In this document: positions 14,104 to 18,414 of the stretch, one piece after another | Layout of the letters: each line of letters starts with the position of its first letter | How positions within the stretch are numbered: the first letter of the stretch is position 1 | DNA from: Desulfobacca acetoxidans | GTDB taxonomy: Bacteria; Desulfobacterota; Desulfobaccia; Desulfobaccales; 0-14-0-80-60-11 | DNA length: 38,092 nt | Direction of reading: 5' to 3' | Assembly: GCA_020722205.1 (NCBI GenBank) | Contig: DYLF01000019.1 | Location: 1-38,092, forward strand | The notes under the pieces: generated by a model | The model's input: the letters and a program-made list of their open reading frames with translations, nothing else | Databases searched by the model: none | What the model was told of the DNA's origin: nothing | Position numbers and translations under genes: made by a program

Positions 14104-15546
14104 ATGAAAAAGACAGGGAATGCTCGAACTGAGACCATGGCTGAGGGACTACGACTGGAAAATGTCGGCCGGGAAGTCACCGTTCCTCCCGGAACCATTA
14201 TTGTCAAACAAGGTGATGCGCCGGAAGATTTTTATGTGGTCAAGTCAGGGCGGTTGCGGGTATTTCGCCAGTCCGCCGAAGGTATCCGCACTGAACTCAC
14301 CAACTTGGGGCCGGGCTCCTACTTCGGGGAAGTGGCCCTGGTCACTGGCCAGCCGCGCACGGCCTCCGTGGAAGCTTTGGAAGAGGCCACTCTCCTGCAA
14401 ATTTCCAAGAGCGAATTTGATTGGGTGCTGGATCACAACCCCCAATTGGCCCGGCACATCATCAAACAGATGGCCAACTGGCTGGTCTCCGGTGACCACC
14501 GCCTGGAGCAGGAAGTGGTGCACCAGGTAAAGCTCCGCCAGATCTCTTGGTTTGATTACCTCCTCATTGTGGGTGTGAGCATCGTCTTTGCCTTGATCTT
14601 CAACATGTACAACGACAATCAGATCCCTCTGGTGCACGACTGGTCTAACAAAGCCCTGCCGACCGAGATTTCCCTGGAGCAGGGCGCGGACATATACCGC
14701 AAAAAGCAAGCGGTGTTTGTCGACGCCCGCAAGAATAGTTTTTATGAGGATCGGCACATTAAGGGCGCTCTCAATCTGCCGGTGGTCTTTTTTGATCTGA
14801 TGTACCCCATGTTCAAGTTCATGATGATGCAGATGGAGCTGCCGGCTGATGCCCCCATTATTGTTTACGGCGGTACAGTGAGCCGGCGCTTCGACATTGA
14901 ATTGGCCCGCCTGCTCAAGGACAAGGGCCACGATAAGGTGATGGTGCTCAACGGCAACTACCGTGCCTGGGAGTACGCCTTTCCCCGGGAGGAAATAAAA
15001 GGGAAAGAACTTCCACCTCTGCCCCTGGGATTGGCTGGCTATCTGGAATGGCTACCGGTCAGCATTTTCGGACTTATCCTGATCCCCCAGGTGCGCCGCA
15101 GCCCTTATCTGGCGGTGTTTTGCCGGCTGCTTCTGGGAGTGATCTTCATTCAATTTGCCCTGAGCAAAATCATGCGGCCGGCGGTCTTTGCCATGAATGT
15201 GGTGGATTACGGCATGATGCCGGCTTGGGGGGTGAACTTGTGGGCCCTTATTCTCCCCTGGGCCGAACTGGTGGCCGGGCTGTTTCTGATTCTGGGCATC
15301 CGGACCCGCACCGCCGCCACCCTTATCGGCGGCATGAACATCATTTTTATGGTCGGCCTGGTCCATGCCCTGATCTATGGTCTGCCCATCAACTGCGGGT
15401 GTGTGGGTGAAGCCGGCGAGCCGGTGACCTGGTGGAAAGTCGTGAAAAACGCCGGTATGCTTTTCATGACCATCCAAATCTTTCTCTATGACCGTCTCTT
15501 TGTGTTGGATCGCGGCGGCTTCATTTGGCGGGAAAGGAAAATATGA
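14104..15546 (+). CDS. cNMP-binding / rhodanese-fold / MauE-DoxX-like membrane fusion
   Basis: 480 residues, three domains. Residues about 15-125 are a CRP-type cyclic-nucleotide-binding domain with the phosphate-binding cassette FGEVALVTGQPRTASV (Gly75, Glu76, Arg85). A membrane segment lies near 152-168. Residues about 190-300 are a rhodanese fold (FVDARKNSFYEDRHIKGALNLP), but the active-site Cys expected after IVVY is replaced: PIIVYGGTVSRR (Gly256), so sulfur transfer is unlikely. The C-terminal third (about 310-465) has four hydrophobic segments and a CGC motif (431-433) with EPVTWWKVVKNAG, as in the MauE/DoxX-like family linked to thiol-disulfide chemistry. First gene of a four-gene overlapping operon; its TGA overlaps the next ATG. 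Likely a membrane redox protein gated by a nucleotide. Ligand and partner unknown. Confidence 0.88.
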   Translation: MKKTGNARTETMAEGLRLENVGREVTVPPGTIIVKQGDAPEDFYVVKSGRLRVFRQSAEGIRTELTNLGPGSYFGEVALVTGQPRTASVEALEEATLLQISKSEFDWVLDHNPQLARHIIKQMANWLVSGDHRLEQEVVHQVKLRQISWFDYLLIVGVSIVFALIFNMYNDNQIPLVHDWSNKALPTEISLEQGADIYRKKQAVFVDARKNSFYEDRHIKGALNLPVVFFDLMYPMFKFMMMQMELPADAPIIVYGGTVSRRFDIELARLLKDKGHDKVMVLNGNYRAWEYAFPREEIKGKELPPLPLGLAGYLEWLPVSIFGLILIPQVRRSPYLAVFCRLLLGVIFIQFALSKIMRPAVFAMNVVDYGMMPAWGVNLWALILPWAELVAGLFLILGIRTRTAATLIGGMNIIFMVGLVHALIYGLPINCGCVGEAGEPVTWWKVVKNAGMLFMTIQIFLYDRLFVLDRGGFIWRERKI

Positions 15547-15926
15547 AGACAAACAGTCTGAAGCGGGCATTTGCCTTGGGGTTGACTCTGGGTTGGTTGC
15601 TGGTGTGGGGGTGCGGCGAATCCCGCCTGCCCTTTGCCGGCACCTATCGCTCGCTGGCACCCTTCGCCGATTCAGGTTATATTGACCTTCACCTCAAGGA
15701 AAACGGCGAGGCTACCTGGAGTCTGGCCCAGGAAGGCAAATCCTTTAAATTAAAATGGCGAGTGGCGGATGGCCGCCTCTGGTTCTATACCAAGGAAGGC
15801 GGCCTGATGATCGCTACCCCCGGAGAGGGGGGCCAGTATCTGGCGGTGGACCTGACCGGCGACTGGCATCCGGGGTGTCCTCCCCAGCAATGCATCAATT
15901 TCAAAAAAGTGCAGACAGGCGGATGA
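15543..15926 (+). CDS. Small lipoprotein of unknown function
   Basis: 127 residues from the ATG at 15543, which follows GGAAAGGAA and overlaps the previous stop as ATGA. The signal peptide ends in a lipobox (LLVWGC), so the mature protein is predicted to be lipid-anchored. The remainder is a small beta-rich domain (TYRSLAPFADSGYIDLHLKENGEATW...), resembling lipocalin-like or META-type single-domain lipoproteins, ending with two Cys in GDWHPGCPPQQCINF that could form a disulfide or bind a metal. No family can be named. Coupled to the MauE-like protein upstream and the secreted protein downstream, it is probably a periplasmic component of the same redox unit. Confidence 0.82.
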   Translation: MKTNSLKRAFALGLTLGWLLVWGCGESRLPFAGTYRSLAPFADSGYIDLHLKENGEATWSLAQEGKSFKLKWRVADGRLWFYTKEGGLMIATPGEGGQYLAVDLTGDWHPGCPPQQCINFKKVQTGG

Positions 15927-17095
15927 AAAGAGAAAGATTCATGGTGGGCAGGACGGCGGGTCTGCTTTGGGCAACTCTCCTGTTGGCGGTGCTGCCCCAG
16001 GTTAGCTGGGGCCTGCCACCGATCACGGAGGTAACGTCCCTCGGACTCAGCCGCCTGGAGGATACTACCTATCTTACCGTGATGGCCAACCGGGCGGTGG
16101 ACGGCAGGGTCACCCCGGTGCAGGCGGAGGGGAAAACCCATCTGCTGGTGGCATTCCCACTCGCCCGGGCCGGACGCTTACCTGCCCAGCTGGCCGGTGA
16201 CGGGGTTCTGGTGCAGCGCCTCCGGACTGAGGTCTCCACTGGGCGGGGGGTGCAGGTTATCCTGGAGATGATTCCGGAAAGGCCTTATACTTTTTGGCGC
16301 CAAGGCCGGATCCTACCGAACGGCCACTATGCCTTCATTGTGGGCCTGAAGGGAGAGAGGACTGCCGCCTGGGAGAATCCCCGCCCTGTACGATCATCCA
16401 CAGCCCAGGAAACCAGACCGGAAAGCAGGACGGAATTTGAGCCTCAAACCTCCTTGGCCTCGACGTCCCCTGGGATTGCCAGCGGGGGACGGCTGGCGGA
16501 ATTGAAAAGCCTCATGCCCAAGGCCGCCCGCCTGCTCCACTACCTGGAGAATGAGGGCTGGCACTTGAGCAAAAAGGAGGACTACGATCGTCCTGGGAAA
16601 CGCTTCAGCCAGGGGTTCTTCCTGAGCAACCCGAAACATCCGGAGATGGTCGTCAAAATCGCCTATCTGCCGGCCAATGCCCCGGGCGCCCCCCACATCA
16701 GTATGGTCACCTTGTCGTTGGAAAATCTTGCCGGAGGGACGGCTGCTGAATACCGCCACCTTCGTCAATGGAGCTTCTCCCAGATCAAAGCCAAGTATGA
16801 GGATATTGGTGACTTTTTTGATGAGGCCCTGAAACCTCTGAGGGTGAAGTTACGCCAACAGTGCCAGCAAGTGGCGCAGCGGGAAGAAGTTTTTCTGAAG
16901 GGTTATGCCTCTCAGGCCTTCCCCGGCAATCCCCAGATCGCCGATCTGGTCATGAAACACCTGCAGGAGAAAGTCAACCCCCGGTTTGAGGGAGTCCAGT
17001 ACACCGTTTCTGAGGAGCCGCTCGGCATCCTGAACCTGGTGGATTTTACTTACCTCCGGGCCTATTATCTAGACCACGGCACAGGAGGAGGATAA
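15923..17095 (+). CDS. Secreted protein with AMIN-like N-terminal domain
   Basis: 390 residues from the ATG at 15923, overlapping the previous stop (ATGA). A signal peptide covers about residues 1-30 (LLLAVLPQVSWG). Residues about 33-145 resemble an AMIN domain (TYLTVMANRAVDGRVTPVQ..., ILPNGHYAFIVGLK), the small beta module that binds the cell wall or secretins. A disordered Ser/Thr/Pro/Glu stretch (about 150-190) precedes a C-terminal domain I do not recognise (GWHLSKKEDYDRP, MVVKIAYLP, FFDEALKPLRVKLRQQCQQVAQREEVFLKGYASQ...). The stop shares its A with the next ATG (TAATG). Likely an envelope protein working with the neighbouring lipoprotein. Confidence 0.8.
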   Translation: MKRERFMVGRTAGLLWATLLLAVLPQVSWGLPPITEVTSLGLSRLEDTTYLTVMANRAVDGRVTPVQAEGKTHLLVAFPLARAGRLPAQLAGDGVLVQRLRTEVSTGRGVQVILEMIPERPYTFWRQGRILPNGHYAFIVGLKGERTAAWENPRPVRSSTAQETRPESRTEFEPQTSLASTSPGIASGGRLAELKSLMPKAARLLHYLENEGWHLSKKEDYDRPGKRFSQGFFLSNPKHPEMVVKIAYLPANAPGAPHISMVTLSLENLAGGTAAEYRHLRQWSFSQIKAKYEDIGDFFDEALKPLRVKLRQQCQQVAQREEVFLKGYASQAFPGNPQIADLVMKHLQEKVNPRFEGVQYTVSEEPLGILNLVDFTYLRAYYLDHGTGGG

Positions 17096-17319
17096 TGGCG
17101 AAAGAAATTATTATTTACGGCAAGGAGACCTGCCCCTTTACCAATCGGGCCCGGGAGGCCAAAAACCAGGAAGGTTATACGGTGATTTACCGGGATGTCC
17201 TGAAGGATGACCAGAACCTCCAGGAGATGCTCAAACTTACCGGTGGGGACCGCCGGGTACCGGTCCTGGTCGAAGCAGACATGGTCAGTATAGGCTACGG
17301 CGGCACCTGAAGAGTTTAG
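17095..17319 (+). CDS. Glutaredoxin-like UXX-star selenoprotein, UGA read as Sec
   Basis: Read to the first stop it is a 71-residue glutaredoxin-like protein: KETCPFTNRA (Cys13, CPxT motif), RRVPVLVE with the cis-Pro, and a GYGGT end. The apparent stop TGA (17308-17310) is followed in frame by AGA GTT and then TAG (17317-17319), giving ...GYGGT-U-R-V-stop. As I recall, NCBI names a family 'UXX-star (seleno)protein family 1' for this end: Sec, two residues, stop. A SECIS-like hairpin sits at 17324-17340, its loop about 20 bases after the UGA. A normal gene finder would cut the last three residues, including the reactive one. It is the last gene of the redox operon (start overlaps the previous stop), likely cytosolic, with a Cys13/Sec72 redox pair. 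The glutaredoxin fold is clear; Sec decoding is inferred. Confidence 0.8.
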
Positions 17320-17323
17320 CCAA

Positions 17324-17340
17324 GCTCGCGGTGCGCGAGC
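17324..17340 (+). promoter_or_regulatory. SECIS-like hairpin for selenocysteine insertion
   Basis: Perfect arms GCTCGCG (17324-17330) and CGCGAGC (17334-17340) with loop GTG; an alternative is six pairs with loop GGTGC. The loop starts 20 bases after the UGA at 17308-17310. Bacterial SECIS elements need a stem-loop roughly 16-37 bases after the Sec codon with a G early in the loop; both are met. It lies mostly beyond the TAG stop. Confidence 0.65.
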
Positions 17341-17390: not shown

Positions 17391-17732
17391 GTCTGTTTTC
17401 TTTCAGTCCCCACTTCATCCCATCATTATGCGCTAGCATCAGCTGTAATAGGGAATTATCAATGTGAAGCAGATTTAAAAAAAGGTATATCTTATTGTAA
17501 TAACGGTAGATATCCCCCCATTAACATAAATTCTGATAAACAAATAATTAGCTAAGATTATTATCCCACTAATGCTTAGTTTTAGGGTTAAAAAATTATA
17601 TAAATCACCACTTTTTATTTCCTTAAAAATAGGCTTTGGTATTTTTTGCCATAGTATTAATTAGCACAAGCTCTAATTAAATAAAATATATATAAATATC
17701 AAATGAATATATATCAATGATTAATTTTTTTC
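17391..17732. other. AT-rich gap without a gene
   Basis: From about 17440 to 17760 the base composition falls sharply to mostly A and T, in contrast with the GC-rich surroundings. No frame here looks coding: the one spanning 17331-17555 runs through the SECIS and terminator and is rejected. The stretch probably serves as promoter-flanking DNA or is a foreign remnant. Confidence 0.5.
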
Positions 17733-17761
17733 TTGACATAGGGATTTTTTTGCGATATAGG
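17733..17761 (+). promoter_or_regulatory. Sigma70-type promoter
   Basis: TTGACA (17733-17738), exactly 17 bases, then TATAGG (17756-17761), preceded by an AT-rich upstream element. The predicted transcript starts near 17768 and leads to the 3D-domain gene at 18040. Confidence 0.6.
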
Positions 17762-17767
17762 TTTAGC

Positions 17768-18039
17768 TACATTCAACAATCGTGCATATTCGACCCTTGG
17801 TAATTTACCTCACTCCTGGGAAGGTGGTGGTGGGAAGGTAGGGCCGGGGTTCTAATTAGCCTCATCGGGCTGGGAAATCAGCCCGTGGGGCAGTTGGCCC
17901 AAGACAGCAACCGAGAGCCGAAAAAACCACCGAATCCAAGACCAGGGATAGCCCTGGCGCCTCTGGGCGGATTTCCGCCATTAAATTCCCACTACCTAGC
18001 TAACACCGGCTGCATCACCATAAAACGAGGCCAATATTT
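17768..18039 (+). promoter_or_regulatory. Long structured 5' leader, candidate regulatory RNA
   Basis: About 270 bases between the promoter and the 3D-domain gene. Three clean hairpins are visible: CGGGCTG/CAGCCCG (17866-17872, 17879-17885), CCAGGG/CCCTGG (17942-17947, 17952-17957) and GGCGG/CCGCC (17966-17970, 17975-17979). GAGG near 18025 may be the ribosome site. I could not match it to the c-di-GMP, c-di-AMP, cobalamin, glycine or SAM riboswitch consensus from memory. No U-run follows the last hairpin, so control would act on translation or mRNA stability. Confidence 0.4.
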
Positions 18040-18414
18040 ATGAAGAAGATATTGCTCTGTTGTCTCTTGACTCTGGGGGTGTGCGTGCTTCCCCGAACCA
18101 CCATGAGCGTCAGTATGTCCATTGTGACGGTGACTGCTTATCACCCTGGGGTTTATGGGGGGCATAACCAGCGCCGGGTGACTGCTTCGGGGAAGAAGGT
18201 TAAAGAGGGCATGGTGGCGGTCAGCCAGGACGTGGAAAGGATGTTGAGTTTAGACTTCGGCGACCGGGTCTTGCTGCATGGTCTGGGGGTGTTTGAATTT
18301 CAGGACCGGATGAGCTACCGGAAGCGCCAAAAGGTCGACATCTTTATGAGATGTCTAAAGAAAGCCCGCCGCTTCGGCATCAAGAGGCATGTGCTACTGG
18401 TGAAACTGGCCTGA
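18040..18414 (+). CDS. Secreted 3D-domain protein
   Basis: 124 residues with a signal peptide (about 1-24). The rest is a 3D domain (three conserved Asp), the catalytic-type double-psi barrel shared with MltA and Rpf/YabE-like peptidoglycan enzymes. VTVTAYHPG opens the domain, ASGKKVKEGMVAVSQDVE follows, and the Asp residues lie in FGDRVLL, FQDRM and KVDIFM. A small stand-alone 3D protein of this kind is expected to act on peptidoglycan in the periplasm as a muralytic enzyme, though substrates are unproven for most. It has its own promoter and a long leader. Its end is 9 bases from the 3' end of the convergent efp gene. Confidence 0.85.
   Translation: MKKILLCCLLTLGVCVLPRTTMSVSMSIVTVTAYHPGVYGGHNQRRVTASGKKVKEGMVAVSQDVERMLSLDFGDRVLLHGLGVFEFQDRMSYRKRQKVDIFMRCLKKARRFGIKRHVLLVKLA

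Follow-up and report, generated by a model that had tools for sequence, protein, structure and literature searches.

The window, as we call the whole stretch of 38,092 nucleotides from Desulfobacca acetoxidans that was analysed, carries on its forward strand a conserved operon whose last gene encodes a small glutaredoxin-like protein (Table 1). The ATG of this gene overlaps the stop codon of the gene before it (TAATG) and is preceded by AGGAGG. Amongst relatives from the same order, the upstream cluster (14104-17095) and the gene itself are kept together wherever the fetched flank sufficed, while in a more distant member of the family (L142) separate rhodanese and MauE genes precede it. Between the last gene of the operon and the next gene, at 18040, lies a strongly AT-rich intergenic stretch (17440-17790), for which the search of Rfam gave no match beyond a chance one.

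With TGA translated as selenocysteine (Sec, U) the frame closes with GGC ACC TGA AGA GTT TAG, giving a 74-residue product that ends in GGTURV, that is U72-R-V followed by the stop codon. This ending had been proposed in the preliminary description together with a hairpin 3′ of the gene, and on re-reading the sequence the translation was reproduced and the positions of the frame, the TGA and the hairpin all proved exact.

Table 1. Positions of the selenoprotein gene, its Sec-related elements and the genes upstream of it in the window
Feature	Position	Strand	Description	Evidence
First gene of the conserved cluster	14104..15546	+	Cyclic-nucleotide-binding, rhodanese and MauE/DoxX membrane protein	Pfam; conserved synteny
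Upstream operon gene	15525..15926	+	133 aa, lipoprotein-like, no Pfam or NCBIfam match	
Upstream operon gene	15917..17095	+	About 390 aa, N-terminal signal-like segment, no Pfam or NCBIfam match	Homologue directly upstream in order relatives
UXX-star family 1 selenoprotein gene	17095..17316	+	74 codons with UGA72 read as Sec; stop TAG at 17314-17316	NF041114 match; 103 complete homologues ending alike
Codon 13	17131..17133	+	TGC (Cys) of CPFT	TGA (Sec) in 22/22 order relatives and 92/104 family genes
SECIS-like hairpin for codon 13	17148..17160	+	Intact, inside the coding region, now without its UGA	GGCC-CGGGA-GGCC, loop 18 nt after codon 13
UGA codon 72, predicted Sec	17308..17310	+		UGA in 103/103 complete family members; Sec machinery in genome
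Predicted SECIS for UGA72	17324..17340	+	7-bp stem, loop GUG, 20 nt after UGA, 3′ of the stop codon	Pairing kept, stem sequence differing among relatives

Family and fold

The 74-residue protein scored 106.4 bits against the NCBIfam profile NF041114, "UXX-star selenoprotein family 1" (cut-off 72), with residues 5-74 aligned to profile positions 1-70 and the Sec included in the alignment. The UXX-star assignment of the preliminary description was therefore right. A match to the Pfam glutaredoxin model PF00462 also passed, with 37.4 bits. The family is already catalogued, and a 2026 review lists it as "Distant Grx-like protein 1" with two Sec residues, one in a UxxT motif and one near the C terminus (PMC13188914). 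The window protein shares with it the glutaredoxin-like domain of about 70 residues and the C-terminal GG[ST]-U-X-X-stop, but the usual second Sec in the N-terminal UxxT is absent and CPFT is found instead, leaving a CxxT motif and a single Sec. Neither the name nor the cut-off of NF041114 depends on that second Sec, because 12 of the 104 family genes have Cys at position 13. UXX-star families 2 and 3 (NF041211 and NF047338) are related small glutaredoxin-like proteins or selenoproteins, against which the window protein scored 49 and 52 bits, respectively, below their cut-offs of 100 and 97.

The AlphaFold model (pLDDT 95.9) has a glutaredoxin fold lacking the last helix. The best matches amongst solved structures are glutaredoxins, with 3ic4 at the top and 4tr0 also found, and the fold comes with an active site of the CPx[CST] type, the CPxT and VP motifs both being kept. 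The clostridial glutaredoxins cGrx1 and cGrx2 (PDB 7c10 and 4tr0), which superpose with a TM-score of approximately 0.74-0.77 over the query, are related to a glutaredoxin from Clostridium oremlandii that is a selenoprotein; unlike the window protein, glutaredoxins of that type have their Sec in a UxxC motif at the N-terminal active site and no terminal Sec (PMC13188914). Glutaredoxin 3 and NrdH (PDB 3grx and 1h75) likewise share the fold and the active-site and VP motifs with the window protein, but have only Cys and a longer C terminus with the last helix that is missing here. No signal sequence was found in the selenoprotein.

The terminal UGA and the hairpin behind it

To follow the terminal codon we used 22 relatives from the same order besides the window gene, and a phylum-wide sample of 395 genomes; the resulting family set comprises 104 distinct genes, 103 of them with a complete 3′ end. 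The terminal site is UGA in all 103, usually followed by two residues and a stop codon, and Cys, UAA or UAG was found at the site in none of them. Homologues with a plain stop here and never Cys or Sec had been named as the observation that would count against selenocysteine; the complete homologues carry the Sec UGA throughout. Within the order, every relative with a complete 3′ end has UGA72, then K, R or G, then V, and then TGA, TAA or TAG. A further 20 loci, nearly all weaker matches below the cut-off, include several that end in Sec and others with a different C terminus, with no terminal Cys form amongst them.

As the preliminary description had advised, the genome, a 2.64 Mb draft in 180 contigs, was checked for the Sec machinery; the search went family by family. 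selA, selB (above its cut-off), selD and a tRNA-Sec gene (selC) with a UCA anticodon are all present; their absence would have spoken against Sec. selD (G000:C43:10246-11163) is a selenoprotein gene too, with an in-frame UGA in the part that encodes the active site (AGUAAKV) and a strong hairpin behind that codon, so the Sec machinery has another evident customer in this genome.

The hairpin behind the window gene, GCTCGCG-GTG-CGCGAGC, consists of seven perfect pairs closing a GTG loop that begins 20 nt past the UGA, as first described, and its stem length, loop and spacing agree with the model constraints for a SECIS given in PMC13188914. On its own it stands out only modestly: its energy is equalled, with the same geometry, by 27 of 1000 dinucleotide shuffles (2.7%), and a plain fold of 48 nt gives a z-score of -0.88. 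A scan of the window against Rfam gave no match at gathering scores. It is the relatives that turn the hairpin into strong sequence evidence for a SECIS. Behind the terminal UGA, 90 of the 103 genes have a stem of 6 bp or more, and in 76 of these 90 the spacing is 17-20 nt. When each gene is compared with dinucleotide shuffles of its own sequence, 68 of the 103 rank in the best 5%, against an expectation of about 5. Amongst the order relatives the stem positions vary between C-G, G-C, A-U and other pairs while the pairing is kept; this pattern is illustrative, the hairpins having been chosen by their pairing, and the independent evidence is that of the shuffle test. A role as a terminator was rejected, as no run of T follows the hairpin.

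Position 13 and its coding-region hairpin

Position 13 of the CPxT motif is Sec in 92 and Cys in 12 of the 104 family genes, the window gene being one of the 12 and the sole Cys13 gene in its order. As it is nested inside a clade of Sec13 genes in the tree, Cys13 is derived there. The two-Sec form usual amongst the relatives had been overlooked in the preliminary description; by the placement of its sequence, the window gene is a further member of the family in a derived, single-Sec form. Across the whole tree, which was built from 69 columns and is weak in its finer branching, the label at site 13 changes nine times, at least four of these being forced by well-supported branches; on the same tree the terminal Sec site does not change at all. 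Sec-to-Cys changes are described as rare in bacteria, with FdhA and SelD as the main documented cases (PMC13188914). The family is therefore a useful test case: one Sec site has changed between four and nine times, with decay of the matching SECIS, and the other never. One genome (G266) has two paralogues of the family, L122 and L143, which differ at position 13, where one has Sec and the other Cys; the terminal Sec is present in both.

In the Sec13 genes the hairpin for codon 13 is formed by codons 18-22 (R18, A19, R20, E21 and A22), with the loop 18 nt after UGA13. Between codons 19 and 21 the third bases pair in 92 of 92 of these genes (C-G in 61, U-A in 21 and U-G in 10), compared with a mean of 78 after shuffling. 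Codon 20, the last two bases of which form the loop G[G/U], is CGG, CGU or AGG in 88 of the 92; CGC, CGA and AGA are never found there in the 92 genes, though 112 of the 305 Arg codons elsewhere in these genes are of those three kinds. Codons 19-21 are invariant as GCC CGG GAG in 22 of 22 order relatives, where most other invariant residues are encoded by two to five different codons. This signature is present in 90 of 92 Sec13 genes against 4 of 12 Cys13 genes (Fisher p = 8e-8, with the sequences treated as independent of kinship). The window gene is among the four; the signature has been lost from the majority of the other Cys13 genes.

The window has CGG GCC CGG GAG GCC here (17146-17160), identical to several of its Sec13 relatives. 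An intact hairpin fits with a recent change from Sec13 to Cys. We rejected the stronger statement that it proves one, since codon usage alone would yield the core signature with a probability of 0.26 and the exact five codons with a probability of 0.03; its preservation could be partly due to codon bias.

Proposed role and alternative readings

Taken together, we put at about 93% the probability that 17095-17316 encodes a UXX-star family 1 selenoprotein, with Sec placed at UGA72 by way of the 3′ hairpin and derived from a form with two Sec residues. Sec insertion in D. acetoxidans is what we infer here from sequence. A SelB-type complex would use the hairpin to insert Sec at codon 72, after which translation would add Arg and Val and end at UAG; the protein, having no signal sequence, would be cytoplasmic. 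Sec72 would sit in the GG-T-U loop, at the place of the glutathione-binding GG motif of glutaredoxins, since the terminal GG-[ST]-U presumably stands where that motif is found. There it would pair reversibly, as a selenenylsulfide, with Cys13, which stands at the beginning of helix 1. This Cys13-Sec72 pair, already proposed in the preliminary description, is most likely the working pair, and the protein is likely to be a cytoplasmic selenol/thiol redox protein built around it. The ancestral form would have had Sec at both positions, and so a Sec13-Sec72 diselenide, until a change of UGA to UGC turned Sec13 into Cys and left the SECIS for codon 13 behind. The rhodanese/MauE operon provides the first lead to function: judging from the operon, the selenoprotein probably exchanges electrons, or sulfane sulfur or selenium, with the rhodanese/MauE membrane protein.

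A different role, in which the Sec72/Cys13 protein binds or detoxifies a metal or metalloid and is not a disulfide oxidoreductase, seems to us unlikely for the window gene, although it is the least improbable of the alternatives. A 2026 review raises the possibility that UXX-star proteins use their Sec to bind a metal (PMC13188914), and an ACR3 arsenite efflux gene adjoins several family loci (L126, L139 and L153; the ACR3 model was tested on the neighbour of L153, and the neighbours of L126 and L139 are its blastp relatives), which suggests a metalloid role in those branches. The window operon, however, has no arsenic or mercury gene but rhodanese/MauE and secreted proteins, and the glutaredoxin fold with its active-site CPxT and VP motifs is kept. 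With neighbours that differ in this way, rhodanese/MauE in some branches and ACR3 in others, the substrate may also differ among the branches of the family.

As to the two Sec sites of the family, we lean somewhat towards a reading in which they are constrained differently: the terminal Sec is never replaced and the Sec of the CxxT site has been swapped repeatedly for Cys, here with the Sec machinery retained, so that the window would give a snapshot soon after such a swap, with an orphaned but intact SECIS. If this is true, the function for which selenium is required belongs to the C terminus and not to the glutaredoxin active site. The family offers a natural dissection of a double selenoprotein in which one Sec can be exchanged and the other cannot. 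Cys13 might instead be an error of sequencing or assembly, codon 13 of the organism really being UGA, as in all of its relatives from the order: a single base (TGC for TGA) separates the window from those 22 genes, the codon-13 SECIS is intact, and one wrong base at 17133 is possible in a draft of this kind. We regard this as improbable, as 11 other family genes have Cys13, several of them with a decayed SECIS, which argues that the change is a natural one, and the branch of the window protein (0.38) is longer than those of its neighbours.

That UGA72 is an ordinary stop, closing a 71-residue glutaredoxin and followed by a terminator or chance structure, is very hard to sustain, for although the 71-residue form alone passes the NF041114 cut-off (98.3 bits) and the hairpin alone is matched by a few per cent of shuffles, UGA is invariant in the homologues while other genes of the window also use TAA and TAG, two codons further on there is another in-frame stop, variable in type, with X-[V/I] conserved in the interval, the hairpin has SECIS geometry, and the Sec machinery is complete. 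The gene thus almost certainly reads through the apparent stop and adds Sec three residues before the end, as the known relatives all seem to. Routine annotation would truncate it at its reactive residue, as had been pointed out at the start; the 74-residue form, which has the NF041114 family ending, corrects this.

More than half of the family genes use UGA for the real stop as well, 9 nt past the Sec UGA (L021 and L026 are examples), so that two UGA codons lie under one hairpin; the window gene uses TAG. For the 51 UGA-stop genes with a clear hairpin, the distance to the loop is 16-23 nt when counted from the Sec UGA, but only 7-14 nt when counted from the stop UGA. The usual lower limit for the spacing of a SECIS loop is 16 nt (PMC13188914), and spacing alone could tell the ribosome which of the two UGA codons to read as Sec.
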